Source: Pseudomonadota bacterium (lineage in GTDB: Bacteria; Pseudomonadota; Alphaproteobacteria; Sphingomonadales; Sphingomonadaceae). From it: a DNA stretch of 13,534 nt. The DNA is taken from assembly GCA_963205285.1 (NCBI GenBank), contig CAUJJQ010000131.1, forward strand, positions 1-13,534, read 5' to 3'. Of this stretch, positions 805 through 13,534 are shown one piece after another. The stretch's first letter is position 1. Each line of letters opens with the position of its first letter. A program made the position numbers and the translations under genes. The notes below the pieces were generated by a model. That model was not told the DNA's origin and ran no database searches. It saw only the letters and a program-made list of their open reading frames with translations.

Positions 805-2703
805 ATGCCGCATTCCGACCTTCCTGCGCGCCGCGCCTTGCTATTGTCCTTTGTCCACCGCGATGCGCTGGCGGGCCAATTGGGTGCGCTCGGCTATCGC
901 GTGCTGGCCGGGCGGCAGAGCGACAATTTGCGCCGCCGCCTTGCCGAAAGCGCGGTGCCGTTGCTGATTATCGACGCGCGCGATGCCATGAACGATGCGC
1001 TGGCGGCGGTGCGGGCGCTGGGCGATACATGGGACAGCATGCAGACCGGGGTCTTGCTCCTCTATGACCGGGTGGACAGCGCCATATTGCCGCAGTTTGC
1101 CGCGCTCGGCGTCACCGCTATGCTGCCGCACCCGTGGAGTGATGCGCAGCTGCTGCTGGCGCTCGGCCTCGCTGCGCGGGGGGAGGGCGGGGCACCCGTC
1201 AATGCGCGGCTGTTCTGGTGGCGACTCAAGGGCCGCAATTTACTGCGGGAGGAAGCTGCGGACGGGGCTGGCGATGGGGCCATGGCCCGCCTGTTCGCCG
1301 ATGCGCGTTATGGCGATATTCGCGGCTTTGCCCGCACGATGCACCCCACGGATCGTCGGCGCGCCTTTGCGGCGTGGCGGTTGCTACGTTCGGGCCAGCA
1401 ATATGTCGCCTTTGTGCAAGCACAGCCGCCAGAGCCGGTCACCGGCCAATTGGTGCACCATATTATCGCCGATGGGGCACGCGCTGCGGGGCAGGTCGAA
1501 TGGTTGCCCGCTGTGCCGCGTCGCCTGCAATCTGGGCCGCGGATCACCCGGATGATCGACCCGGTACTGAGCCTCGCGGTCGCGCGCGCGGGGGAGGGCG
1601 CATTGCTGATGCTGCTCGAAATATCGCCGCTGCAGCCCGTTTCACGGCGCAGCGATGGCGAAATAGCGATCACCATTTTCGAACGTGACCTGACAGAGCG
1701 TTTGCGCGGCGATGGCGTTGCCAGCCATTGGCGCATCGGCCCGCAGCACTGGCTGTTCAGTCTGGGCAAGGCGGCGGTTGCGGGGCAATCGGCGCAGCAA
1801 ATGACCGTCGCGCTCAACATTGCGGACGCGCATCGGGCGCATTTGGCGCGCCATATGGGGGCCGATGCGCTGCGCATCGGCTTTGCACGTGCGCGCGATG
1901 GGGAGGCGCCCAATGCCCTACTGACCCGGTTACAGCGGCAATGCCGGCCGCTTGCAACATGGCTCGGCGGCATCGACATGGATGCAGCACCCGAACAGCT
2001 CAGCATCGTCTTCCAGCCGCAATTTGCGCTCGATAGCTATGCCATAGTGGGTGCAGAGGCATTGGCGCGCTGGCAGCACCCCAAATATGGGCGGCTTGGC
2101 CCCGCAGCGCTGTTCGCCGCCGCGCGGCTTGTCGGGGCAGAGGCGGCGCTTAATCGGGCGATACGGAAAAAGATACTGGCGCAGATGGCTGCGTGGCCCG
2201 CATCGGCTGCGGAACTGCGCATCGGCATCAACCTCGACGCAAAAATTCTGGCGGATGATGATTTGGCCACACAGATGCAGGACGAAGCGGCGCTGGCCGG
2301 GGTTGCGATGCACCGGCTCACCATCGAACTGCTGGAAAGCGCGATGCTCACCGACCCGGAAGCCGTCGCCAAGAACCTGAGCAAGCTGCGTCAGGCGGGG
2401 GCAAAAGTCGCGCTCGATGATTTTGGCAGCGGCTATTCGGGACTGGCATGGCTCGACGCGCTGCCGGTCGATTACCTCAAAATGGATGCCGCGCGCACGG
2501 CCAGCGTGGCGACATCGGGCGGGGTGGTCGTGCGCGATCTCTTGGCACTCGCCGCGCGCCATGACCTGCCGATGCTGGCCGAAGGGGTAGAGAACCATGC
2601 AGAAGCGGCCTTGCTGCGCGATATGGGTGTCACCATCGCGCAGGGGCATGGATTATCCCCGCCGCTGGAGGAGGGAGATTTGATCAAATTATTGGCGGGC
2701 TAA
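805..2703 (+). CDS. EAL-domain c-di-GMP phosphodiesterase with degenerate REC and GGDEF-like regions
   Basis: Probably hydrolyses the second messenger c-di-GMP to pGpG. The C-terminal EAL domain (about residues 400-630) keeps the expected metal and catalytic residues: E418 in the EAL motif, N476, E508 in IELLES, D538 and D539 in DDFGSGYS, K559 in DYLKMD, E593 in AEGVE and Q613 in AQGHG. Residues about 10-125 look like a receiver fold, but the acidic pair of strand 1 is absent and the usual Lys-Pro of strand 5 is His-Pro (LPHPWS), so it is probably not phosphorylated. Residues about 140-250 may be PAS-like. Residues 310-316, RIGPQHW, align with the RxGGDEF signature of cyclases but have lost it. 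No signal peptide or membrane helix is evident. The ATG at 805 lacks a clear ribosome binding site. The end overlaps convergent mfd by 15 bases. EAL assignment is strong; the N-terminal domains are inference. Confidence 0.9.
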   Translation: MPHSDLPARRALLLSFVHRDALAGQLGALGYRVLAGRQSDNLRRRLAESAVPLLIIDARDAMNDALAAVRALGDTWDSMQTGVLLLYDRVDSAILPQFAALGVTAMLPHPWSDAQLLLALGLAARGEGGAPVNARLFWWRLKGRNLLREEAADGAGDGAMARLFADARYGDIRGFARTMHPTDRRRAFAAWRLLRSGQQYVAFVQAQPPEPVTGQLVHHIIADGARAAGQVEWLPAVPRRLQSGPRITRMIDPVLSLAVARAGEGALLMLLEISPLQPVSRRSDGEIAITIFERDLTERLRGDGVASHWRIGPQHWLFSLGKAAVAGQSAQQMTVALNIADAHRAHLARHMGADALRIGFARARDGEAPNALLTRLQRQCRPLATWLGGIDMDAAPEQLSIVFQPQFALDSYAIVGAEALARWQHPKYGRLGPAALFAAARLVGAEAALNRAIRKKILAQMAAWPASAAELRIGINLDAKILADDDLATQMQDEAALAGVAMHRLTIELLESAMLTDPEAVAKNLSKLRQAGAKVALDDFGSGYSGLAWLDALPVDYLKMDAARTASVATSGGVVVRDLLALAARHDLPMLAEGVENHAEAALLRDMGVTIAQGHGLSPPLEEGDLIKLLAG

Positions 2704-5700
2704 TTTCGCCAACCCTTTGGACAATTGCAGCGCACCGTTCAAACGCGCCGCCGCATGGGGCCAGCTTCGCGCGATGTTCAGCCGCCCGTCGGGACGCAAT
2801 TTGGCGGTGCCCGACAATCGTTCGACATAGGCGATAAGGCCCCCGACATTGGGCGGCGCGTCGCCCGCGAATGCCACCAACGCCCCTTTTGCCGAAATAT
2901 CGAGCCGGGAAATGCCCGCCTGCATCGCGTACAATTTTATTTCCATCAACTGCATCAAATTGGCGGTTGGTTCGGGCAATGGCCCGAAACGGTCGATCAT
3001 TTCGGCGGCAAATGCGTCAATGTCTGCGCGCGATTCCAAATCATTGAGCCGACGATAGAGCGCCATGCGCAGCGACAGGTCGGGCACATAATCATCGGGC
3101 AGCAAAATCGGCGCGTCGAGCGTGATGAGGGGCGACACACGTTCCTTGGGCGAAGCCAACCCCGCCCCTTCGGCACGGGCGAGCAAAATCGCATCCTCCA
3201 GCATCGACTGGTACAGTTCAAACCCGACTTCGCGGATGTGGCCCGATTGTTCATCGCCGACCAGATTGCCCGCCCCGCGCATGTCGAGGTCATGGCTCGC
3301 CAATTGGAACCCGGCCCCCAATGAATCGAGGTCGAGCAGCAATTTCAGCCGTTTTTCGGCCGTTTCGGTGATAATCCGATCCGCTGGCGTGGTGAAATAG
3401 GCGTAAGCGCGGGTCTTCGCGCGGCCAACGCGTCCGCGCAGCTGGTACAGTTGCGACAGGCCGAAACGGTCGGCCCGGTGGATGATCAGCGTGTTGGCGT
3501 TGGGAATGTCCAGCCCGCTTTCGACGATGGTGGTGGAGAGGAGGACATCATAGCGCCCCTCGTAAAAGGCGCTCATCCGGTCTTCGACCTCGCTCGGCGC
3601 CATTTGCCCATGCGCCACGACATAGCGCACTTCACCCACCGATTTGCGCAGGAAATCCTCTATATCGGGGATGTCGGAAATGCGCGGGACAACGATGAAA
3701 CTCTGCCCGCCGCGATGATGTTCGCGGAGCAATGCCTCGCGCATCACCACCGCATCCCACGCCGAAACATAAGTGCGCACCGCCAGCCGGTCGACCGGCG
3801 GGGTTTTTATGACGCTAAGGTCGCGCAGACCGGACATCGCCATCTGGAGCGTGCGGGGGATGGGAGTCGCGGTCAGCGTCAACACATGCGCGTCGGACCG
3901 CAGCGCCTTTAACCGTTCCTTGTGCACCACACCGAAATGCTGTTCTTCATCGACGATGATCAGGCCGAGCCGCTTAAACTCGATGCTTTTGGCCAGCACC
4001 GCATGGGTGCCGATGACGATGTCGATCTGCCCGGCGGTCAGCCCATCGCGCACCGATTTGGCTTCATTGGTTGGAACCAACCGCGACAGGCGACCAATGT
4101 TGATCGGAAAGCCGCGAAACCGCTCGACAAAATTGGCGTGGTGCTGGCGGGCGAGCAAGGTTGTCGGGGCGACGATGGCCACCTGTAACCCCGCCATCGC
4201 GGCGACAAAGGCGGCGCGCAACGCGACCTCTGTCTTGCCGAAACCGACATCGCCGCACACCAGCCGGTCCATCGGTTTGCCCGCCGCCAGATCGGCCAAA
4301 ACATCTCCAATCGCGGCTTCCTGATCATCTGTCTCGGTATAGGGAAAGCGGTTGAGGAACTCTGGGAAACCGGCATCCGCATCGGCACGCGGCGCAATGG
4401 CAAGCGCGCGCTGCGCCGCTGTCGCCAGCAAAACACCCGCAATTTCGCGGATGCGTTCCTTCATCTTGGCGCGGCGACGTTGCCATGCATCCCCGCCCAA
4501 ACGGTCGAGTGCCACCGCTTCGCCATCGCCGCCGTAGCGGGTCAAAACGTCGAGATTCTCGACCGGCACATATAATTTGTCGCCGCCAGCATAGGTAAGC
4601 CAGACGCAGTCATGCGGCGATTGTCCGACGGGGATGGAGGTCAGCCCCTGATAACGCCCGATGCCATGGTCACGGTGAACGACCAGATCGCCGGTTGACA
4701 GGCTGGCCATTTCGGCGAGGAAAGCGTCGGCGCTTTTCCTTTTTTTGGCGCGGCGCACCAGCCGGTCACCCAACATATCCTGTTCGGTGAGGATGCTGAT
4801 GTCGCCCAGCGTAAATCCATGATCGAGCGGCAGGCAGAGGGCAGCGCAGTTATGCGCGCCTGAAAGCGCCAGCGCGCCCGCCCAATCATCGACAGGGACA
4901 AGTCCGCGCGCACCATGTTCTTCGAGCAGTTGCAGCAAGCGTGCGCGTGACCCCGGCGAGTAACAGGCGAGGATGATTTTGCGCCCTGCGCGCCGTTCAG
5001 CGGCGATATGCGCCGCGATTTCTGTATAAATCGGCCCATTTTGCGCACGAATATCAGCAAAATCGCGTGCGGCATGACTGGCGAGGTCGATGATGTTGGG
5101 CGCGGGCGGCTCGGCAAAGCCCGTAACGCCATGGATGGGCACTGCTCCCGCCAGCGTGCGCCATTCATCCTCCAATATATAGCGCGCTTCGGGGGGGAGG
5201 GGGCGATAAGCGCCGGGTGTCCGCCCCTCCGCCTCCAGCCGGTTGGCGTGATAATCGGCAATGGCTTCCCAACGATGGGCGCGGGCGCTGGCGGCGCCAT
5301 CCTCCTCCACCCACAGGCAATCATCGCCCAGATGGTCGATGAGCGGCACCAGCCGTTCCTCCATCAACGGCAGCCAATGTTCCATGCCTGCACTGCGCCG
5401 CCCGTCGCTGATCGCCTGATAGAGCGTGTCGCCGGTCGCACTGACGCCAAAAAACTCACGATATTGGGTGCGGAAACGGCGGATATTTTCTTCGCTGAGT
5501 TGCACCTCGCTCGCCGGGCGCATTGAAAATCCATCGGCCTTGGCACTGCTGCGCTGATCAGCGGGGTCAAAGCGGCGAATATCCTCCACCTCGTCGCCAA
5601 AGAAATCGAGCCGATAACCCAGCGTCTCGCCCGCCGGGAAGAAATCAATTATCCCGCCGCGCACCGCATATTCGCCATGGTCGGCGACATTATCCACGCG

Positions 5701-6162
5701 CACATAGCCCAAATCACCCAGCCGGCTGGCGAGCGCATCGCGTTCAAAGCGGCTGCCCACGCGAACATCGAGGCTGAGCGCGCGGATGCGAAAGGGGGTG
5801 AGCGTGCGCTGCAAAACCGCATTGGCGCTGGTGAGGATTATTTGGGGGCCGTGGCGCGGCCCCTGCAAGCGTGCCAGCGTGGCGAGCCGCGCCGAACCGG
5901 CGGCAAGGCTGGGGCCGGAACGGTCGTAGGGCAGGCAATCCCACGCGGGAAAGGTCAATATCTCCACATCGGGGGCGAAAAACTGCGCCGCATCGGCGAT
6001 CGCCTGCATCGCGGCCGCATCGCTGGTTACCCATGCGAGGCGCTGGCCCTGCGCGTGGGCGAGGCGCGCCAATTCGCCCGCCAGCATCGGCGCATATCCC
6101 GGCGCAACGCGGGTGAGGCGCAGCGTACCCGCTGCGTCAAAAAGGCGCGTGGGCAGCGTCAT
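2689..6162 (-). CDS. mfd: Transcription-repair coupling factor Mfd
   Basis: DNA translocase that removes RNA polymerase stalled at lesions and recruits UvrA. The 1157 residues match the family's usual length. The N-terminal UvrB-like module shows FPAWDCLPYDRSGPS. The RNA polymerase-interacting domain is marked by GDLVVHRDHGIGRYQGL from residue 491. The RecG-type motor has Walker A GDVGFGKT at 637-644, DEEQ at 738-741, TATPIPRT at 764-771 and QLRGRVGR at 907-914. A C-terminal TRCF domain (UvrA-binding region) lies around residue 1050 (DRFGPLPEP). The ATG overlaps the sdhE stop in an ATGA, which fixes the start and suggests translational coupling. The 3' end overlaps the convergent EAL gene. 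All motor motifs are intact and no frame break is seen. Confidence 0.98.
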   Translation of the reverse strand: MTLPTRLFDAAGTLRLTRVAPGYAPMLAGELARLAHAQGQRLAWVTSDAAAMQAIADAAQFFAPDVEILTFPAWDCLPYDRSGPSLAAGSARLATLARLQGPRHGPQIILTSANAVLQRTLTPFRIRALSLDVRVGSRFERDALASRLGDLGYVRVDNVADHGEYAVRGGIIDFFPAGETLGYRLDFFGDEVEDIRRFDPADQRSSAKADGFSMRPASEVQLSEENIRRFRTQYREFFGVSATGDTLYQAISDGRRSAGMEHWLPLMEERLVPLIDHLGDDCLWVEEDGAASARAHRWEAIADYHANRLEAEGRTPGAYRPLPPEARYILEDEWRTLAGAVPIHGVTGFAEPPAPNIIDLASHAARDFADIRAQNGPIYTEIAAHIAAERRAGRKIILACYSPGSRARLLQLLEEHGARGLVPVDDWAGALALSGAHNCAALCLPLDHGFTLGDISILTEQDMLGDRLVRRAKKRKSADAFLAEMASLSTGDLVVHRDHGIGRYQGLTSIPVGQSPHDCVWLTYAGGDKLYVPVENLDVLTRYGGDGEAVALDRLGGDAWQRRRAKMKERIREIAGVLLATAAQRALAIAPRADADAGFPEFLNRFPYTETDDQEAAIGDVLADLAAGKPMDRLVCGDVGFGKTEVALRAAFVAAMAGLQVAIVAPTTLLARQHHANFVERFRGFPINIGRLSRLVPTNEAKSVRDGLTAGQIDIVIGTHAVLAKSIEFKRLGLIIVDEEQHFGVVHKERLKALRSDAHVLTLTATPIPRTLQMAMSGLRDLSVIKTPPVDRLAVRTYVSAWDAVVMREALLREHHRGGQSFIVVPRISDIPDIEDFLRKSVGEVRYVVAHGQMAPSEVEDRMSAFYEGRYDVLLSTTIVESGLDIPNANTLIIHRADRFGLSQLYQLRGRVGRAKTRAYAYFTTPADRIITETAEKRLKLLLDLDSLGAGFQLASHDLDMRGAGNLVGDEQSGHIREVGFELYQSMLEDAILLARAEGAGLASPKERVSPLITLDAPILLPDDYVPDLSLRMALYRRLNDLESRADIDAFAAEMIDRFGPLPEPTANLMQLMEIKLYAMQAGISRLDISAKGALVAFAGDAPPNVGGLIAYVERLSGTAKLRPDGRLNIARSWPHAAARLNGALQLSKGLAKLARQ

Positions 6163-6422
6163 ATGATGCGGATATAATCCAGCCGCCGCAGCGCGTCGAA
6201 CATCGGCCCGTGCAGGCGTTCAGGCGCTTCAGCCACCCCCATCGCCCACGCCAATATGTCGACATCCTGTTCGTCGATCAGCGCCTCGAACCACGTAATT
6301 TCTTGTGCATCCCACCCTTGATGGTGCGCATCAAAAAAACCGCCGACCAGATAATCCGCTTCGCGCGTGCCGCGATGCCATGCGCGGTAACGCAGCGCGC
6401 GAAGATGGGCAGGGTCGGACAT
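6159..6422 (-). CDS. sdhE: SdhE-type succinate dehydrogenase FAD assembly factor
   Basis: Small cytosolic protein (87 residues) of the SdhE/YgfY/CptB family (formerly DUF339), which promotes covalent attachment of FAD to the succinate dehydrogenase flavoprotein. The diagnostic RGxxE motif is present in RYRAWHRGTREADYLVG near the N-terminus, followed by the usual small helical bundle with acidic stretches (WFEALIDEQDVDILAW). Length is normal for the family. AGGAAA at 6426-6431 lies just before the ATG and supports the start. The stop overlaps the mfd ATG by four bases, so the two are probably co-transcribed and mfd translation may depend on sdhE. It is divergent from recG. Confidence 0.93.
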   Translation of the reverse strand: MSDPAHLRALRYRAWHRGTREADYLVGGFFDAHHQGWDAQEITWFEALIDEQDVDILAWAMGVAEAPERLHGPMFDALRRLDYIRII

Positions 6423-6488
6423 GGGTTTCCTCTATACCGGCGGGGCTGGCGCAGTGGCCGCGCAATGCCTATGCTGCGCGCCATAGTC

Positions 6489-8567
6489 ATGCGGCCCGCC
6501 ATACTCAATCCTCTCTTTACCGAAATGGCGGCCAGAAAGGGCGTCGGCCCAGGGCTTGTCCGCCTGCTCGAACGGCTGGAAATCCGGCGGGTGCGTGACC
6601 TCCTCTTTCACTTGCCGAGCGGCTTTGTTGAGCGGCGCGCCATCGCCGATTTGGATGCGGCGCGCATCGGCGAACAGGCACTGGTCGAACTGTGCGCGCA
6701 GGAATATCGCGCGGGGCGTTCGGCGCGCGCGCCGATGCGTATTTCCGCCTTCGATCGTGCCGGAAACCATGTCGCCATCGTCTATTTCGGGCGCGCGGCG
6801 CATATCGGCAAACGCGCCTTTCCGCTGGGTGAATGGCGGCTGGTGGCGGGGCGGATCGACCGTTTTGGTGATGATTTGCAGATCGTCCACCCCGACCATG
6901 TCGGCGCGGTAACGGGGGACGGCGCACCGCCTGCCAAGGCGCATGAAAATATCTATCCGTTGACAGAGGGGCTGACCAATCCGCGCATCGCCGCGCTGAT
7001 GACGGATGCGCTGGGCGATGCGCCAAATTTGCCCGAATGGGCGGATGCGTCGTTGCTGACCAACCGTCACTGGCCCGACTGGCGAAGCGCGCTCACCCAC
7101 GTCCATGGCGATGCGCGGGGGGAGGCGGACACAGCGGCGCGCGACCGGCTGGCCTATGATGAATTATTGGCCGGGCAATTGGCCTTTTTGCTCGTCCGCG
7201 CGGCGGGGCGGCAGCGACCGGGGCGTATATTGACACCCAACGGACGGCTGCGCGATGCGGTGCCGCTGCCCTTTGCGCTGACGGGTGCGCAGGTGCGCGC
7301 GATTAAGGAAATCGACCGCGATTTGATTAGCGGCGCGCCGATGCTGCGCCTGCTGCAAGGCGATGTTGGCTCCGGCAAGACGCTGGTGGCGCTGATGGCG
7401 ATGCTGGCAGCGGCGGAAAATGGCGCACAGGCCGCGATGCTCGCCCCCACGGAGATTTTGGCGCGCCAGCATTTTGCCAATCTGTCGGCGTTGCTGCGCG
7501 ATGTGCCGGTGCGTGTCGCGCTCCTAACGGGACGCGAAAAGGGCAAGGCGCGCAGCGAAATTGTCGATGCGCTGGCGCGCGGTGCCATCGACATACTTAT
7601 CGGCACCCACGCGATTTTTCAGGATGCGGTTGTTTATGATGATCTGGCGCTGATCATCGTCGATGAACAGCATAAGTTCGGTGTGGCGCAGCGCATGGCA
7701 TTGGCGCGCAAGGGGCGGCAGGTGCCGCATGTGCTGGCGATGACTGCGACCCCCATTCCGCGCACTTTGGTGCTCGCCGCTTATGGGGAGCTAGACGAAA
7801 GCCGTCTCGATGAATTGCCGCCGGGGCGCAGCCCGGTGGATACGCGCGTCGTCACGCAGGAACGCATCGGCGATATGACCGATGCCATGGCGCGTCATTT
7901 GGACGGGGGTGGCCGCGCCTATTGGGTGTGCCCGCTGGTCAATGACAGTGACAAGAGCGACGCAACGGCGGTGGAGGCGCGCTTTGCCGCGCTACAAACG
8001 CGATTTGGCGCAGCGGTCGCGATGGTGCATGGGCAAATGGCAGCGGCGGATCGCGATGCAGCGATGCAGGCATTTATCAGCGGAACGGTCAGCCTGTTGG
8101 TGGCGACGACGGTTATCGAAGTCGGGGTCGATGTGCCCGAAGCCAGCCTGATGATCATCGAAAATGCGGAACGTTTCGGGTTGGCACAGCTCCACCAATT
8201 GCGCGGGCGGGTCGGGCGCGGCAGCGCTGCATCGCGCTGCATATTGCTGCGCGCCAATGCGGTCAGCGAAACGGCGCGCGCGCGCCTTACACTCATGCGT
8301 GAAACACAGGATGGGTTCCGCATAGCGGAAGAGGATTTGCGCCTGCGCGGCGGCGGTGAGTTGATGGGCACGCGCCAGTCTGGCGAAGGGCAATTTCATC
8401 TGGCGAACGGCGAACAAATTGACCGGCTGATCGGCGTGGCGCGCGATGATGCGCACCTGCTCCTTGAACGCGATGGCGCCCTGGATGGTGCGCGCGGGGA
8501 TGCGGCGCGCATCCTCCTCTATTTATTTGAACGTGATGTCGGGGTGCAATTGCTCAGGGGTGGTTAA
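6489..8567 (+). CDS. recG: ATP-dependent DNA helicase RecG
   Basis: SF2 branch-migration helicase that remodels stalled replication forks and recombination intermediates. From ATG 6489 it is 692 residues, the usual RecG size. The N-terminus (NPLFTEMAARKGVGPGLVRL, then LLFHLPSGFVERR) leads into the OB-fold wedge domain. Motor motifs are Walker A GDVGSGKT at 291-298, DEQH at 392-395, TATPIPRT from 419 and QLRGRVGRG at 570-578. The C-terminus has LRLRGGGELMGTRQSG. The open frame runs upstream as far as 6210, but that would cover sdhE. ATGs at 6465 and 6471 are in frame and possible. None of the starts has a strong ribosome binding site, and 6489 was chosen by protein homology. It shares a short divergent spacer with sdhE, and its stop overlaps that of the PilZ gene. 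Confidence 0.95.
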   Translation: MRPAILNPLFTEMAARKGVGPGLVRLLERLEIRRVRDLLFHLPSGFVERRAIADLDAARIGEQALVELCAQEYRAGRSARAPMRISAFDRAGNHVAIVYFGRAAHIGKRAFPLGEWRLVAGRIDRFGDDLQIVHPDHVGAVTGDGAPPAKAHENIYPLTEGLTNPRIAALMTDALGDAPNLPEWADASLLTNRHWPDWRSALTHVHGDARGEADTAARDRLAYDELLAGQLAFLLVRAAGRQRPGRILTPNGRLRDAVPLPFALTGAQVRAIKEIDRDLISGAPMLRLLQGDVGSGKTLVALMAMLAAAENGAQAAMLAPTEILARQHFANLSALLRDVPVRVALLTGREKGKARSEIVDALARGAIDILIGTHAIFQDAVVYDDLALIIVDEQHKFGVAQRMALARKGRQVPHVLAMTATPIPRTLVLAAYGELDESRLDELPPGRSPVDTRVVTQERIGDMTDAMARHLDGGGRAYWVCPLVNDSDKSDATAVEARFAALQTRFGAAVAMVHGQMAAADRDAAMQAFISGTVSLLVATTVIEVGVDVPEASLMIIENAERFGLAQLHQLRGRVGRGSAASRCILLRANAVSETARARLTLMRETQDGFRIAEEDLRLRGGGELMGTRQSGEGQFHLANGEQIDRLIGVARDDAHLLLERDGALDGARGDAARILLYLFERDVGVQLLRGG

Positions 8568-8890
8568 ACATTCGCGCTCAACGCGCGCAGCAAGGGTGCA
8601 TAATCGCTGAGCGGCATGCCCTGCAGGAATTGGATGCCGCTGCGCCCGCCCAGCGACCAGATGCAACGCCCAGCAACCTTGCCTAAAATCGGCATCGAAA
8701 AATGGACTATGCCATTGTCGGTAATCGTCTGTTCGTGGCGTATGAGCGCGCCATCGGCAGAGATATTGACGATGGTCACCATCGCTGGCTGCCCGTCGGG
8801 CAGGTTCAACGGTACGCGCGCATATACATCGGTGCGCGGGCACAAACGCTGATCTACGCCTTGATAAGAGGCATTGGTTATAGGCTTCAT
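8564..8890 (-). CDS. Single-domain PilZ protein, probable c-di-GMP receptor
   Basis: A 108-residue protein made essentially of one PilZ domain, the c-di-GMP-binding fold. Both ligand motifs are visible: RxxxR as R15-L-C-P-R19 and (D/N)xSxxG as N42-I-S-A-D-G47. The strand CIWSLGGRSGIQF that follows is typical of small alphaproteobacterial PilZ proteins. With no output domain it would act as an adaptor on an unknown partner. No signal peptide or membrane helix is seen. AAAGGCG upstream of the ATG is a reasonable ribosome binding site. It lies downstream of tyrS on the same strand, 92 bases away, and may have its own promoter, since TTGACA reads on the minus strand at 8940-8935, although no good -10 is apparent. 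Its stop shares TTAA with the convergent recG stop. Confidence 0.88.
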   Translation of the reverse strand: MKPITNASYQGVDQRLCPRTDVYARVPLNLPDGQPAMVTIVNISADGALIRHEQTITDNGIVHFSMPILGKVAGRCIWSLGGRSGIQFLQGMPLSDYAPLLRALSANV

Positions 8891-8982
8891 CGCATCGCCT
8901 TTGCGCTAGAGACGCGCGATATTGCGCCCAACATTGTCAACAAGCAGTAAACGTAGCGGCGAATGGATGCGCGGCGCTGCGA
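8891..8982 (-). promoter_or_regulatory. Spacer between tyrS and PilZ gene with a consensus -35 hexamer
   Basis: The 92-base gap holds TTGACA on the minus strand (8940 to 8935), a perfect sigma-70-type -35 placed 45 bases before the PilZ start. At 16-18 base spacing the -10 position is GC-rich and does not match the consensus, so the promoter is tentative. I see no clear stem-loop with a T-run to end tyrS transcription. Confidence 0.3.
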
Positions 8983-10224
8983 TTATTTTGCGGCGATCTG
9001 CCCATGTTTTTTCGCGCCCAGCTGGACAGCAATCGACGTGTCGCCGGGTAGGATGCGGGCCATTGCGTCACTGACCACAACGCCATCGATGCGCACCGCC
9101 CCTTCGGTGATTTTGCGCTTCGCTTCATTATTGGAGGCGACAAAACCCAAGGCTTTCAAAATATTGGCGACGCTATCGCCTTCGGCCGATATGGCAACGC
9201 TGGCGATGCCCCCCGCCATTGCGCCTTGTTCAAATATCTTTGCCGCGCTGTCTGCCGCATCTGCCGCAGCTTCCGCCCCGCGGCACATGGCGGTTGCGAG
9301 GTTGGCGAGGGTTTTTTTCGCCTCGTTGATGTCGCTGCCACCCAATTGGCTGAGGCGGCGGACTTCATCCATCGGCAGGTCGGTGAAAAGCGCCAGAAAA
9401 CGCCCGACATCGCGGTCATCGCAATTGCGCCACTATTGCCAATAATCATGCGCCGACAATTGGTCGGGGTTGAGCCAGACCGCGCCCGATGCCGTCTTGC
9501 CCATTTTCGCACCATTGGCGGTGGTGAGCAGCGGGGTTGTAACACCGAACAATTCCGTCCCATCCATGCGGCGGGCCAGTTCGATCCCGTTGACAATATT
9601 GCCCCATTGGTCCGAACCGCCCATTTGCAGCCGCGCGCCATGGCTGCGCGACAATTCCCGGAAATCATAGGCTTGCAGGATCATATAGTTGAATTCGAGG
9701 AAGGTGAGCGGCTGTTCACGGTCGAGCCGTAATTTTACCGAATCAAAGGTCAGCATGCGATTGATGGTGAAATGCGGACCGACGGTGCGCAACACCTCCA
9801 CATAGCCCAATTGGTCGAGCCAATCGGCATTATTGACCATGACGGCATCGCTCGGCCCATCGCCAAAGGTCAGAAATGGTTCAAAAATCCGCCGGATGGA
9901 GGCGATGTTGGCCGCAATGTCGGCATCGCTCAGCATTTGACGCGACGCATCGCGCCCCGACGGGTCGCCAATCTTGGTGGTGCCGCCGCCCATCAGGACA
10001 ATCGGCTTATGTCCTGCCTGCTGCATCCGCCGCAGCAGCATGATCTGCACCAAAGAACCGACGTGCAGCGAGGGAGCGGTTGCGTCAAAACCGATATATC
10101 CGGGGATGATTTGCTTGGCCGCCAGCGCGTCGAGTGCACCTGCGTTCGTCATCTGGTGGATATAGCCGCGTTCGTCGAGTAAGCGGACAAGATCGGATGT
10201 GAAGGCGCTGTTATCTGTCGTCAT
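8983..10224 (-). pseudogene. tyrS: Tyrosyl-tRNA synthetase interrupted by one in-frame amber codon
   Basis: Class I synthetase that charges tRNA-Tyr with tyrosine. Read through, it is 413 codons, the normal TyrS length. The catalytic half has the HIGH-type motif HVGS at 54-57, the GGSDQWGN segment and the KMSKS-type loop KMGKT at 240-244. Codon 264 is TAG (9435-9433), between DYWQ and WRNCDDRDVGRF. The frame continues unchanged to a C-terminal S4 RNA-binding domain (about residues 345-410, KALGFVASNNEAKRKI) and a TAA at 8983. Homologs carry an aromatic residue at that spot, so a single Tyr-to-amber base change explains it, with no indel. Translation stopping there gives a 263-residue protein lacking the anticodon-recognition and S4 regions. 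The possibilities are a real nonsense mutation with a second TyrRS elsewhere, suppression, or a base-call error. Identity is certain; functional status is open. Confidence 0.9.
9433..9435 (-). other. In-frame TAG codon within tyrS
   Basis: The codons read GAT TAT TGG CAA TAG TGG CGC AAT. Protein similarity to TyrS is continuous on both sides in the same frame. TAT or TAC to TAG needs one substitution. Confidence 0.95.
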
Positions 10225-10243
10225 GGCGCGGCGCGCCTAGCAT

Positions 10244-10250
10244 GGGGAGG
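10244..10250 (+). promoter_or_regulatory. Ribosome binding site GGGGAGG that supports a TTG start
   Basis: GGGGAGG lies five bases before TTG at 10256. There is no ATG or GTG in the proper frame nearby that has such a site, so this decides the start of the DOMON-like gene. Confidence 0.6.
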
Positions 10251-10255
10251 GGCTG

Positions 10256-10813
10256 TTGGCCAATATATTGCGCGAAAATTGCGCGGATCTGGTTGCGCAT
10301 GATGGCGTGCATGCAGGCGGGGTCGATGCGATCCATGTTGCATGGCAATGTCTGGATGACGATTTGCTCGACCTTCGCTTTGTGGCGGCGGGCGTTGGTG
10401 ATCAATTGGCTCTGCCGTCGCCCAACACTGTGCCCACCCGGCGCGATGGTCTGTGGCAGACGAGCTGTTTTGAAATGTTCGCCGCGACCGATGCGGGCTA
10501 TGCCGAATATAATTTTTCGCCCTCGGGTGATTGGGCCGCATACCATTTTACCGGCTATCGGTGCGGGATGGCGCTGCTCGATGTGCCCGCGCCGCATATC
10601 AGGCTGACGCACAGAGACCATGGCCTGACGCTCAACATTACGCTCACCCTGCCGCCCAAACTCGCCCAGGATGCGCGCGTCGGTTTCAGCTCGATTATTG
10701 CTGATGCGGCGGGTGGCAAAGCCTATTGGGCGCTGTGCCACCCACAGGGGCCACCCGATTTTCACCATGATGATTGCTTTGCCGCACGGCTTGGGGCACC
10801 GCAGCGGCCATGA
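10256..10813 (+). CDS. DOMON-like domain protein
   Basis: A 185-residue, beta-rich protein resembling the DOMON-like proteins that some databases associate with MurB annotations. The family signatures I recognise are DGLWQTSCFEMF at 64-75 and YAEYNFSPSGDWAAY at 82-96, followed by a GYR motif. DOMON domains generally bind heme or sugars, but no specific ligand can be read here and no catalytic residue is evident. No signal peptide is seen, so it is probably cytosolic. TTG at 10256 is chosen as start because of a strong GGGGAGG upstream; it lies 31 bases from the divergent tyrS start. Its TGA overlaps the ATG of the NamZ gene by four bases, so it is the first gene of a likely operon devoted to cell-wall sugars. 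The biochemical role is unknown. Confidence 0.8.
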   Translation: MANILRENCADLVAHDGVHAGGVDAIHVAWQCLDDDLLDLRFVAAGVGDQLALPSPNTVPTRRDGLWQTSCFEMFAATDAGYAEYNFSPSGDWAAYHFTGYRCGMALLDVPAPHIRLTHRDHGLTLNITLTLPPKLAQDARVGFSSIIADAAGGKAYWALCHPQGPPDFHHDDCFAARLGAPQRP

Positions 10814-12012
10814 ATGTCCAATTTGGTATCGACCGCCTGCTCGCCGACCCGCAAACGCTGGGCGAATTGGCGGGCCGCCGTGTTGCGCTGCTCGCCCATC
10901 CGGCATCGCTCACTGCCGATCTGCACCACAGCCTTGATGCGCTGGTCGCGGCGGGGGTCAAAATAACCGCCGTGTTCGGGCCGCAGCATGGCGTGCGCGG
11001 CGATTTGCAGGATAATATGATGGAAAGCCCGGATTATACCGATCCGGTCTATGGCATCCCCGTGTTCAGCCTTTATGGCGAAGTGCGCCGCCCCAGCGGG
11101 CAGATGCTTTCAACCTTTGATGTGATTTTGGTCGATGTGCAGGATTTGGGCTGCCGCATCTACACCTTCATCACCAGCCTTCTTTATATCCTCCAAGCCG
11201 CCGCTGCGAACGGCAAGAGCGTCTGGGTGCTCGACAGGCCCAATCCGGCGGGCCGCCCGGTGGAAGGGCTGGCGCTGCGTGCGGGCTGGGAAAGCTTTGT
11301 CGGCGCTGCCCCCATCCCGATGCGCCACGGCCTCACCATGGGCGAATTGGGCCATTATTTCATCGACCATTATGCGCTCGACGTCGATTATCGCGTCATT
11401 GGCATGACGGGCTATGCCCCCGACGATGCACCCGGTTTTGGCTGGCCGGTCGAACGTATCTGGATCAACCCCAGCCCCAACGCCCCCAATTTGAATATGG
11501 CGCGCGCCTATGCGGGAACGGTGATGCTGGAGGGAACGAACCTTAGCGAAGGGCGCGGCACCACCCGTCCGCTCGAACTGTTCGGCGCGCCGGATTTGGA
11601 TGCAGACGCAATTGCCCGCACGATGGCGGATTTGGCGCCTCAGTGGCTGGCGGGCTGCAAATTGCGCCCCGTCCATTTTGAGCCGACCTTTCACAAGCAT
11701 GTCGGGCAATTGTGCAATGGCCTGCACATCCATGCCGAAGGGCCATGGTATGACCATGCCAGCTTTCGCCCGTGGCGGGTGCAGGCGCTGGCGTTCAAGG
11801 CAATTCGCCAGCTATATGGCGATTATCCGCTGTGGCGCGATTTTCCTTATGAATATGTGTTCGACCGGCTGGCAATCGACGTCATCAATGGCGGTGAAGA
11901 TTTGCGCCGCTGGGTCGATGATGATGCGGCGCGCCCGGCGGATCTCGACGCCATAACGCTGGCCGATGAACGCGCATGGCTTGAGCAACGCACCCCTTTC
12001 ATGCTTTACTGA
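10810..12012 (+). CDS. NamZ-type exo-beta-N-acetylmuramidase (DUF1343, GH171)
   Basis: Family known from NamZ, which removes MurNAc from non-reducing ends of peptidoglycan fragments. The 400 residues cover the whole domain: FGIDRLL start, RRVALLAHPAS, FGPQHGVRGD at 56-65, VDVQDLGCRIYTFI, LDRPNPAGR, RHGLTMGELG, NPSPNAPNL and EGTNLSEGRGTTRP. The common GPEHG signature reads GPQHG here (Q59), so a conserved Glu is replaced, perhaps typical of a subgroup. No signal peptide is visible, unlike secreted members, which suggests cytosolic cleavage of imported muropeptides. The frame is open upstream to 10774, but ATG 10810 forms an ATGA overlap with the preceding stop and begins where homologs begin. 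Family is secure; substrate is inferred. Confidence 0.9.
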   Translation: MNVQFGIDRLLADPQTLGELAGRRVALLAHPASLTADLHHSLDALVAAGVKITAVFGPQHGVRGDLQDNMMESPDYTDPVYGIPVFSLYGEVRRPSGQMLSTFDVILVDVQDLGCRIYTFITSLLYILQAAAANGKSVWVLDRPNPAGRPVEGLALRAGWESFVGAAPIPMRHGLTMGELGHYFIDHYALDVDYRVIGMTGYAPDDAPGFGWPVERIWINPSPNAPNLNMARAYAGTVMLEGTNLSEGRGTTRPLELFGAPDLDADAIARTMADLAPQWLAGCKLRPVHFEPTFHKHVGQLCNGLHIHAEGPWYDHASFRPWRVQALAFKAIRQLYGDYPLWRDFPYEYVFDRLAIDVINGGEDLRRWVDDDAARPADLDAITLADERAWLEQRTPFMLY

Positions 12013-12042
12013 ACGCATCGACCGCTACCAAAGGGGGGCGTC

Positions 12043-12351
12043 ATGATATTGGTTACCGGAGAAATTTTGGCCAAGCCAGAACGTGTGGCCGATGTGGAGG
12101 GGCTGTCGCTCGCGCATGTCAAACGCTCCCGGACGGAGGATGGCTGCCTTAGCCATGACGTCCATCGCCATGTGGAGGGCGCCAATCGTTTCGTCTTTGT
12201 CGAAACGTGGAGCGATATGATCAAGCTAAAGGCGCATTTCGCATTGCCGGATTCGCAGAAATTTGCGCGACAAGTGGCGCTGATGGCGCAGGAACCCGTG
12301 AAGATAGAGATTTTTCACGCGGTGCCGATAGCCGCCAACCTGTCGCTGTAA
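12043..12351 (+). CDS. Small ABM-domain protein, putative quinol monooxygenase
   Basis: A 102-residue protein of the antibiotic biosynthesis monooxygenase (ABM) fold, a dimeric ferredoxin-like barrel. The pattern is typical: VTGEILAKPE at the start, EDGCLSHDVHRHVE, then FVFVETWSDMIKLKAHF and a final strand ending near IEIFHAV. Relatives such as YgiN oxidise quinols without a cofactor, but many members are uncharacterised and substrate cannot be read from sequence. AAAGGGGGG before the ATG is a strong ribosome binding site. It sits 30 bases after the NamZ gene and 10 bases before the GH84 gene, so it is probably co-transcribed with both, although its link to sugar metabolism is unclear. Confidence 0.82.
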   Translation: MILVTGEILAKPERVADVEGLSLAHVKRSRTEDGCLSHDVHRHVEGANRFVFVETWSDMIKLKAHFALPDSQKFARQVALMAQEPVKIEIFHAVPIAANLSL

Positions 12352-12361
12352 CCTGCCGACC

Positions 12362-13438
12362 ATGCCGGAAAATGCGCCGCCGCTGGGGCTGATAGAGGGG
12401 TTTTTCGGCCCCCTATGGTCATGGGCCGAACGGCGCAGCGTCGCCCAAATCCTCAGCGCCCATGGCTATCGCTTCTATCATTATGCGCCCAAGGGCGACG
12501 CTTTGCTGCGCGAAAAATGGCAGATGCCCTATGCCCCGGCGGATGTCGCGACGCTTGGGGCATTTGCCGACGATGTGCGGGGGCAGGGGATGCGCTTTGG
12601 CGTTGGCCTGTCGCCCTTTGGTGCGCAACATGGTTTTGATGCATCCGCGCGCACCACGATGCGCGCCAAGTTGGCGCAGCTTGACGATGCGGGCATCGAT
12701 GACCTCGCCATCCTGTTCGATGATATGGATGGGGCGATTGGCGACCTTGCCACGCGACAGGCCGAAATCATCGATTTTGTGACCCAGCATAGTCGGGCGC
12801 AGCAATTTTACACCTGCCCCAGCTATTATAGTGATGATGCGGTGCTCGACAGGGTGTTTGGGGCGCGGCCAGCATATTATCTCGAAGATTTTGGTCGGCT
12901 GACGCACCGGGACATTGCTGTCTATTGGACGGGGGAGGAGGTGTGCGCGCGCGCCATTTCGTCCGGCCATATCGCCGATGTCGCCCGCCGCCTCGGCCGT
13001 GCGCCCGCCATTTGGGACAATTGGCCGGTGAATGACGGGGCGCGGATGCGGGGCCACCTGCATTTGCGGGGGTTTACCGGGCGCGACCCGGCGATTGCAC
13101 CGGCCATCCACAGCCATGCGGTCAACCCCTGCCTGCAACCGATTTTGAGTTGCATCGCCGCAATCACCCTGCCGCAGCTTTACCGCGAAGGCGCGGATTA
13201 CGCCTATATGAACGCCTTTCTGACGGCGGCAGAAACGGTGTGCGGGGCGCAATTGGCCGATATGCTGCATGGTGATTTGTTGCGGCTGGAGGATGGGGGA
13301 CTGTTGCGCCTCGATGCTGCGGCGCTGGCGAAGCTGACCGCGCGTTACAAAGCCATCGACCACCCGGCGGCGCGCGAAGTGGTGCGCTGGCTGGCGGGCG
13401 ATTATGCCAAGGATGCGGACGGGGTGCAGACGCAATAA
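12362..13438 (+). CDS. GH84-type beta-N-acetylglucosaminidase
   Basis: Glycoside hydrolase of the NAGidase/O-GlcNAcase family (GH84), which removes beta-linked GlcNAc by substrate-assisted catalysis. Signatures in order: GLIEGFFGPLWSW at 9-21, YAPKGD at 41-46 with K44 matching the conserved active-site Lys, FGVGLSPF, the adjacent catalytic Asp pair D120-D121 in LFDDMDG, and WDNWPVND at 218-225. At 358 residues it is little more than the catalytic domain plus a short helical C-terminus. Many bacterial GH84 enzymes are secreted and multidomain, but no signal peptide is seen here. It follows the ABM gene by 10 bases and shares the operon with NamZ. Candidate substrates are cell-wall or chitin-derived GlcNAc, or O-GlcNAc on proteins. 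The ribosome binding site is weak. Family call is firm; substrate is open. Confidence 0.9.
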   Translation: MPENAPPLGLIEGFFGPLWSWAERRSVAQILSAHGYRFYHYAPKGDALLREKWQMPYAPADVATLGAFADDVRGQGMRFGVGLSPFGAQHGFDASARTTMRAKLAQLDDAGIDDLAILFDDMDGAIGDLATRQAEIIDFVTQHSRAQQFYTCPSYYSDDAVLDRVFGARPAYYLEDFGRLTHRDIAVYWTGEEVCARAISSGHIADVARRLGRAPAIWDNWPVNDGARMRGHLHLRGFTGRDPAIAPAIHSHAVNPCLQPILSCIAAITLPQLYREGADYAYMNAFLTAAETVCGAQLADMLHGDLLRLEDGGLLRLDAAALAKLTARYKAIDHPAAREVVRWLAGDYAKDADGVQTQ

Positions 13439-13534
13439 AATTACCCAAAAATCGCAGCTTAGCCATGATTGATTGGTTGACGCTTACGTGAACGTGAAAC
13501 ATGATGCGCCAAGGATAGAGATTCGGGGGATCGC
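13439..13534. other. Non-coding right edge
   Basis: After the GH84 stop no gene is visible up to the window end. The sequence drops in GC and contains a dyad promoter-like element. No stem-loop with a T-run ends the operon in view. A plus-strand gene probably starts just beyond the edge. Confidence 0.5.
13477..13505 (+). promoter_or_regulatory. Dyad-symmetric promoter element, LiuR-like (MerR family) operator candidate
   Basis: TTGACG (13477-13482) could be a -35 and CATGAT (13500-13505), 17 bases on, a fair -10. Bases 13477-13498 form an imperfect 22-base inverted repeat (8 of 11 pairs), with the core TTACGT-GA-ACGTGA. This ACGT-rich dyad over a -35 recalls operators of MerR-type regulators of branched-chain amino acid or fatty acid catabolism. 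The controlled gene would lie past the window. Similarity is from memory. Confidence 0.4.

Follow-up and report, generated by a model that had tools for sequence, protein, structure and literature searches.

An in-frame amber codon in tyrS of a fragmentary Sphingopyxis-like genome, most simply read as a wrong base

The gene for tyrosyl-tRNA synthetase (TyrRS), tyrS, is normally essential, and the copy described here carries a TAG codon inside its reading frame. Is this codon a wrong base in the assembly, a genuinely broken allele, or a codon that the cell translates? A first-pass annotation of this DNA listed five options without choosing among them: an error, a second TyrRS elsewhere, an amber suppressor, regulated readthrough, or a split enzyme with reinitiation. 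Error emerges from our analysis as the best supported of these, short of proof; readthrough, a split enzyme and a suppressor found no support.

The window (the whole stretch of DNA analysed, 13,534 bases) is contig C131 of a genome assembled into 303 contigs that total 1,909,247 bases, with an estimated completeness of 76.45%. Most named proteins among the best TyrS matches are from Sphingopyxis, and the genome is Sphingopyxis-like. The features of the locus are as follows.

10224-8983, minus strand: tyrS, 413 codons plus TAA in one frame, with a single internal stop
9436-10224, minus strand: tyrS codons 1-263, the catalytic part, from the open reading frame, the alignment and the Pfam tRNA-synt_1b match (residues 43-332)
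9433-9435, minus strand: the in-frame TAG, tyrS codon 264, read directly in the sequence; Tyr or Phe at 109 of 109 related loci
8983-9432, minus strand: tyrS codons 265-413 plus TAA, the rest of the helical region and the S4 domain (residues 354-396), beyond the TAG; dN/dS 0.073 against the nearest relative
9370-9372, minus strand: ATG, the family Met codon 285, suggested earlier as a restart site; same residue in P0002 and G091

The initial claim that TyrS similarity runs in a single frame over 413 codons, broken only by TAG at codon 264, is borne out by the direct sequence and by the match to the NCBIfam tyrS model (TIGR00234), which scores 340.1 bits against a cut-off of 113.8 and spans model positions 5-404 of 406 when the frame is read across the stop. 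With X placed at the stop, the translation matches Pfam tRNA-synt_1b (PF00579) and S4 (PF01479) over the residues given above. The frame of the helical and S4 domains is not uninterrupted, since the TAG lies in it in the context CAT GAT TAT TGG CAA TAG TGG CGC AAT TGC GAT. Homology continues unbroken on both sides, which places the stop well beyond the expectation for a chance frame. We take HVGS (residues 54-57) to be a HIGH-like motif and KMGKT (residues 240-244) a KMSKS-like motif. In the extent of the model match and the presence of all expected domains the gene is like other bacterial tyrS; it is unlike them in the one in-frame TAG. The domain order of bacterial-type TyrRS is given in a passage of PMC4275181.

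A chain ending at the TAG would have 263 residues, lacking S4 and the remainder of the tRNA-synt_1b match. Among TyrRS chains of solved structure, short ones (319-322 residues; e.g. 1tyd, 4ts1, 1x8x) align up to residues 319-323 of P0002. Compared with these, the terminated chain would fall short by about 56-60 residues, and it would probably be inactive.

The TAG occupies a position that is aromatic in every related locus read. The assertion that homologs have F or Y there holds in 109 of 109 loci (Tyr 59, Phe 50), none of which has a stop, and the alignment of close relatives proposed as a check gives a sense codon throughout. In the genus, 58 of 60 genomes match, our own among them; the 29 loci returned from the other 57 all have a sense codon: TAT in 17, TAC in 1 and TTC in 11 (18 Tyr, 11 Phe). 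So do the 80 loci from the genome-contig collection, which are the best of 592 candidates and may overlap in species with the 29 (TTC 38, TAC 28, TAT 13, TTT 1; 41 Tyr, 39 Phe). P0002, a full-length protein 96% identical to the window's TyrS, has Tyr at residue 264. The nearest relative whose region was read, G091, is colinear with window positions 2194-13531 (11.3 kb) at 85.1% identity, and its tyrS is intact, encoding 413 residues with TAT at codon 264 in an otherwise near-identical context. As had been pointed out, a single base change separates Tyr from TAG; one change from the TAT of this relative is enough.

Wider surveys gave the same picture. Among 80 genomes of the genus, including our own, tyrS scores over the cut-off in 76, and only the window's copy has an internal stop. 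At order level 157 genomes were surveyed; a tyrS match at E <= 1e-40 occurs in 145, and internal stops are reported for our genome and G165. The G165 gene is split over two contigs (C6:3300-4232 and C288:3629-4075), and one piece has two TAA codons inside the match. Two genus genomes, G088 (100% complete) and G090 (91%), have no tyrS over the cut-off, just a weak hit resembling that of tryptophanyl-tRNA synthetase (TrpRS); missing sequence, masked sequence or a different TyrRS are all conceivable there.

The break also appears without an independent record. In the protein collection, the 129-residue C-terminal fragment that it yields matches one record, which is the window itself. A search with the N-terminal piece found no separate shortened copy among the 120 best of 8000 scored; the window's own shortened copy is likewise absent from those 120, so clusters may hide such copies. 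We saw no independent assembly with the break in the protein collection, a weak result because few assemblies of the same species may exist. Among the papers listed by literature searches, none deals with a stop codon inside a natural bacterial tyrS, to judge from titles and opening abstract lines.

A consensus, assembly or mixed-strain error is the probable source of the TAG, and we infer that the cells themselves have a different base here. By this account an ordinary bacterial tyrS in a fragmentary assembly would carry one wrong base: a codon for an aromatic residue (Tyr in both of the nearest relatives) would be displayed as TAG through a consensus or assembly error or because a minor strain's base entered the consensus, and the population most likely makes a normal TyrRS of 413 residues. 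The TAG is unique in all sets read (none of the 109 loci, and among the 76 genus genomes only our own), and it sits in the sole tyrS found in an otherwise ordinary genome, between intact neighbours. If the consensus error rate is taken as 1e-5, a genome of this size should contain about 0.4 nonsense codons, so that such cases must appear in any scan of large numbers of genomes. The TAG is most simply read as an assembly or sequencing error, or as a stray broken copy, rather than as a new mechanism. Premature stops caused by assembly errors are alike in that the break is found in one assembly and relatives are intact; truncated proteins are used as a sign of such errors in a passage of PMC6785717, which is about indels in long-read assemblies, whereas the change here is a substitution.

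The contig itself argues against error. The window is free of N and its genes are long and intact. Alignments of mfd and recG with G091 contain few one-base gaps, and these fall in compensating pairs; together with the clean window, this gives no general sign of a poor contig. Elsewhere in the assembly N do occur: the window together with 60 of the remaining 302 contigs, a sample of 61 sequences, holds 15,957 N in 386,594 bases, which may be scaffold gaps or masking.

A search for further premature stops gave no pointer to a high error rate, because no second one was accepted. We compared 84 sequences of this genome (449,636 bases) with relatives' open reading frames, covering 84 places and 24,791 aligned residues. 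The comparison reported 24 in-frame stops and only that of tyrS was accepted; the other 23 were discounted on visual inspection, as upstream extensions, as antisense or shadow frames, or as stretches that are probably non-coding. Fourteen of the 24 sites were checked for an alternative open frame of at least 120 codons, and 13 have one, the tyrS site included, so the open-frame check alone does not separate the sites. The one site without such a frame, L045:679, is near a tRNA gene. The reverse comparison, with the genome's own open reading frames set against G017, reported 9 stops over 20,350 residues. A previous form of the comparison covered 19,010 residues and yielded 12 stops plus one frameshift-like pair, and its reverse control yielded 13 stops.

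Because the codon's surroundings are clean, a real allele remains a serious contender, and we hold as a tentative second possibility that tyrS is genuinely broken, by a recent nonsense mutation, in the strain that was sampled. The one-base distance from the relative's TAT fits this. Such a strain would live on a TyrRS encoded in the missing quarter of the genome or on slight natural readthrough, or the DNA would represent a minor or declining subpopulation. The suggestion of a second TyrRS elsewhere was followed with the tyrS model, and in the assembled part (76.45% of the genome) nothing but this gene scores over the cut-off. The one weaker hit, on contig C268 (42.1 bits, below the cut-off), was rejected as a second TyrRS, its 334-residue open reading frame appearing to encode TrpRS; it was flagged with one TAA, yet that frame is open, and many such weak hits in relatives bear the same flag. 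A second synthetase could still lie in the missing quarter. Against a null allele stand the essentiality of the gene, the absence of an independent record of the break, and the fact that the genus genomes listed with tyrS over the cut-off have one such match each.

Selection behind the stop also speaks against a genuinely broken gene and in favour of error. The dN/dS ratio against G091 (Nei-Gojobori) is 0.037 before the stop and rises to the value tabulated above behind it. A roughly twofold rise points towards relaxed selection, but this explanation was dropped: in a three-way comparison the private residues before and behind the stop number 3 and 6 in the window, 1 and 5 in P0002, and 8 and 14 in G091, so that the intact G091 has more behind the stop than the window does (14 vs 6), and the rise is common to intact genes. 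Behind the stop the window and P0002 differ at 12 of 149 residues, where outgroups agree with the window at 4 and with P0002 at 6, with 2 ties. There is no clear sign of decay, and purifying selection continues behind the TAG, implying that the change is either very recent or not real.

That the cell translates the TAG in any functional way is, taken over all such readings, very unlikely. The first of them, in which UAG is read as tyrosine through a code change or an amber-suppressor tRNA and tyrS is translated in full, is highly improbable, even though the TAG sits at a Tyr position and neither release factor 1 (RF1) nor a tRNA-Tyr is found in the assembly. Searches for this reading covered tRNA genes, RF1, RF2, PrmC and one PylC-like model. 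The sole prfA-model match (259.3 bits against a cut-off of 423.25) was rejected as RF1, since the prfB model scores 495.4 bits at the same place, identifying RF2; neither RF1 nor PrmC was found over the cut-off in the assembly. RF1 loss was attractive at first, and was dropped once prfA and prmC had been placed in a gap between two contigs. When 14 kb of G017 around prfA were used as query, contig C149 matched up to query base 4007, and contig C158 matched from its own base 38, which corresponds to query base 7709. C149 seems to end 7 bases past its match, judging from the 2,931-base locus L266 and assuming the usual 1,500-base left flank. The G017 stretch between the two matches holds prfA, placed by model search, and what appear from their sequences to be prmC and the 3' end of hisS. 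This position explains why RF1 seems to be lacking; the gene most likely lies in the assembly gap. C149 and C158 (L266 and L269) look adjacent in the window's genome. Over the genus, RF1 scores above the cut-off in 76 of 80 genomes, the misses being our own, G083 (68% complete), G031 (73%) and G101 (92%).

The proposed amber suppressor found no backing among the 23 tRNA genes in the assembly, none of which has a CUA anticodon, though several tRNAs are missing from it: no gene is labelled Tyr, Ala, Asn, Ile, Lys or Phe, a pattern that fits its incompleteness. In the 1.2 Mb of G017 that were read there is one tRNA-Tyr (GTA). The Pfam model PylC-like_N has no match in the genome, a weak test in that the model also matches controls such as Bacillus subtilis.

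Stop codon usage provides a further argument. At 64 conserved frame ends from the comparison with relatives, which were not individually curated, TGA occurs 33 times, TAA 19 and TAG 12, and TAG therefore seems to be in use as a terminator in this organism. Little follows from the nine genes checked in the window (7 ending in TAA, 2 in TGA, none in TAG). A strict reference-free scan of the 61-sequence sample found 6 candidate stops inside coding-like stretches. Five have a start 0-7 codons behind the stop and resemble neighbouring genes; tyrS alone has none close by, with no start for 20 codons. Applied to 1.2 Mb of G017, the same scan gave 29 candidates. A looser scan gave 30 (12 TAA, 9 TGA, 9 TAG), many resembling shadow frames, and was for that reason left unused; further in-frame TAG codons may exist. 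Known UAG reassignment and amber suppression are alike in the TAG at a Tyr position and the RF1 missing from the assembly, and unlike in that here TAG ends other genes, RF1 falls in a contig gap and no CUA tRNA was found. One doubtful base together with an assembly gap that removes RF1 and PrmC can mimic codon reassignment in a fragmentary genome.

Readthrough programmed to sense the charging of tRNA-Tyr, like a split enzyme restarting at 9372, is scarcely credible, although constraint persists in the downstream piece and an in-frame ATG is present there. Programmed readthrough would be expected to leave the stop conserved in relatives, and it occurs in none of the 109 loci and none of the 75 other genus genomes over the cut-off. 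RNA folding of the 101 bases that begin with the stop is no better than that of shuffled sequences (z -0.23), and no Rfam family exceeds threshold in the window. As for reinitiation, the ATG is present as claimed; it is an ordinary internal codon of the family, and both P0002 and the nearest relative read LPMDEV here as well. A restart at this codon would omit the conserved block WRNCDDRDVGRFLALFTDLP, 20 conserved residues. No ribosome-binding sequence was seen by eye ahead of the Met285 codon, the sole start considered. A real stop with readthrough would place an essential synthetase under self-sensing control; we give almost no weight to the version in which low-level decoding of the TAG as tyrosine makes TyrRS output depend, in one lineage, on its own product Tyr-tRNA.

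Beside tyrS, window positions 10774-13438 encode three proteins that may form a cell-wall recycling cluster: a NamZ-type exo-N-acetylmuramidase, an ABM-domain protein and a NAGidase-family protein. G091 keeps the order of at least the NamZ-type and NAGidase-family genes. The window also encodes an EAL-domain protein (805-2703) and a PilZ-domain protein (8564-8890), both possible parts of cyclic-di-GMP signalling, which flank mfd, an Sdh5-domain gene and recG on the two sides.
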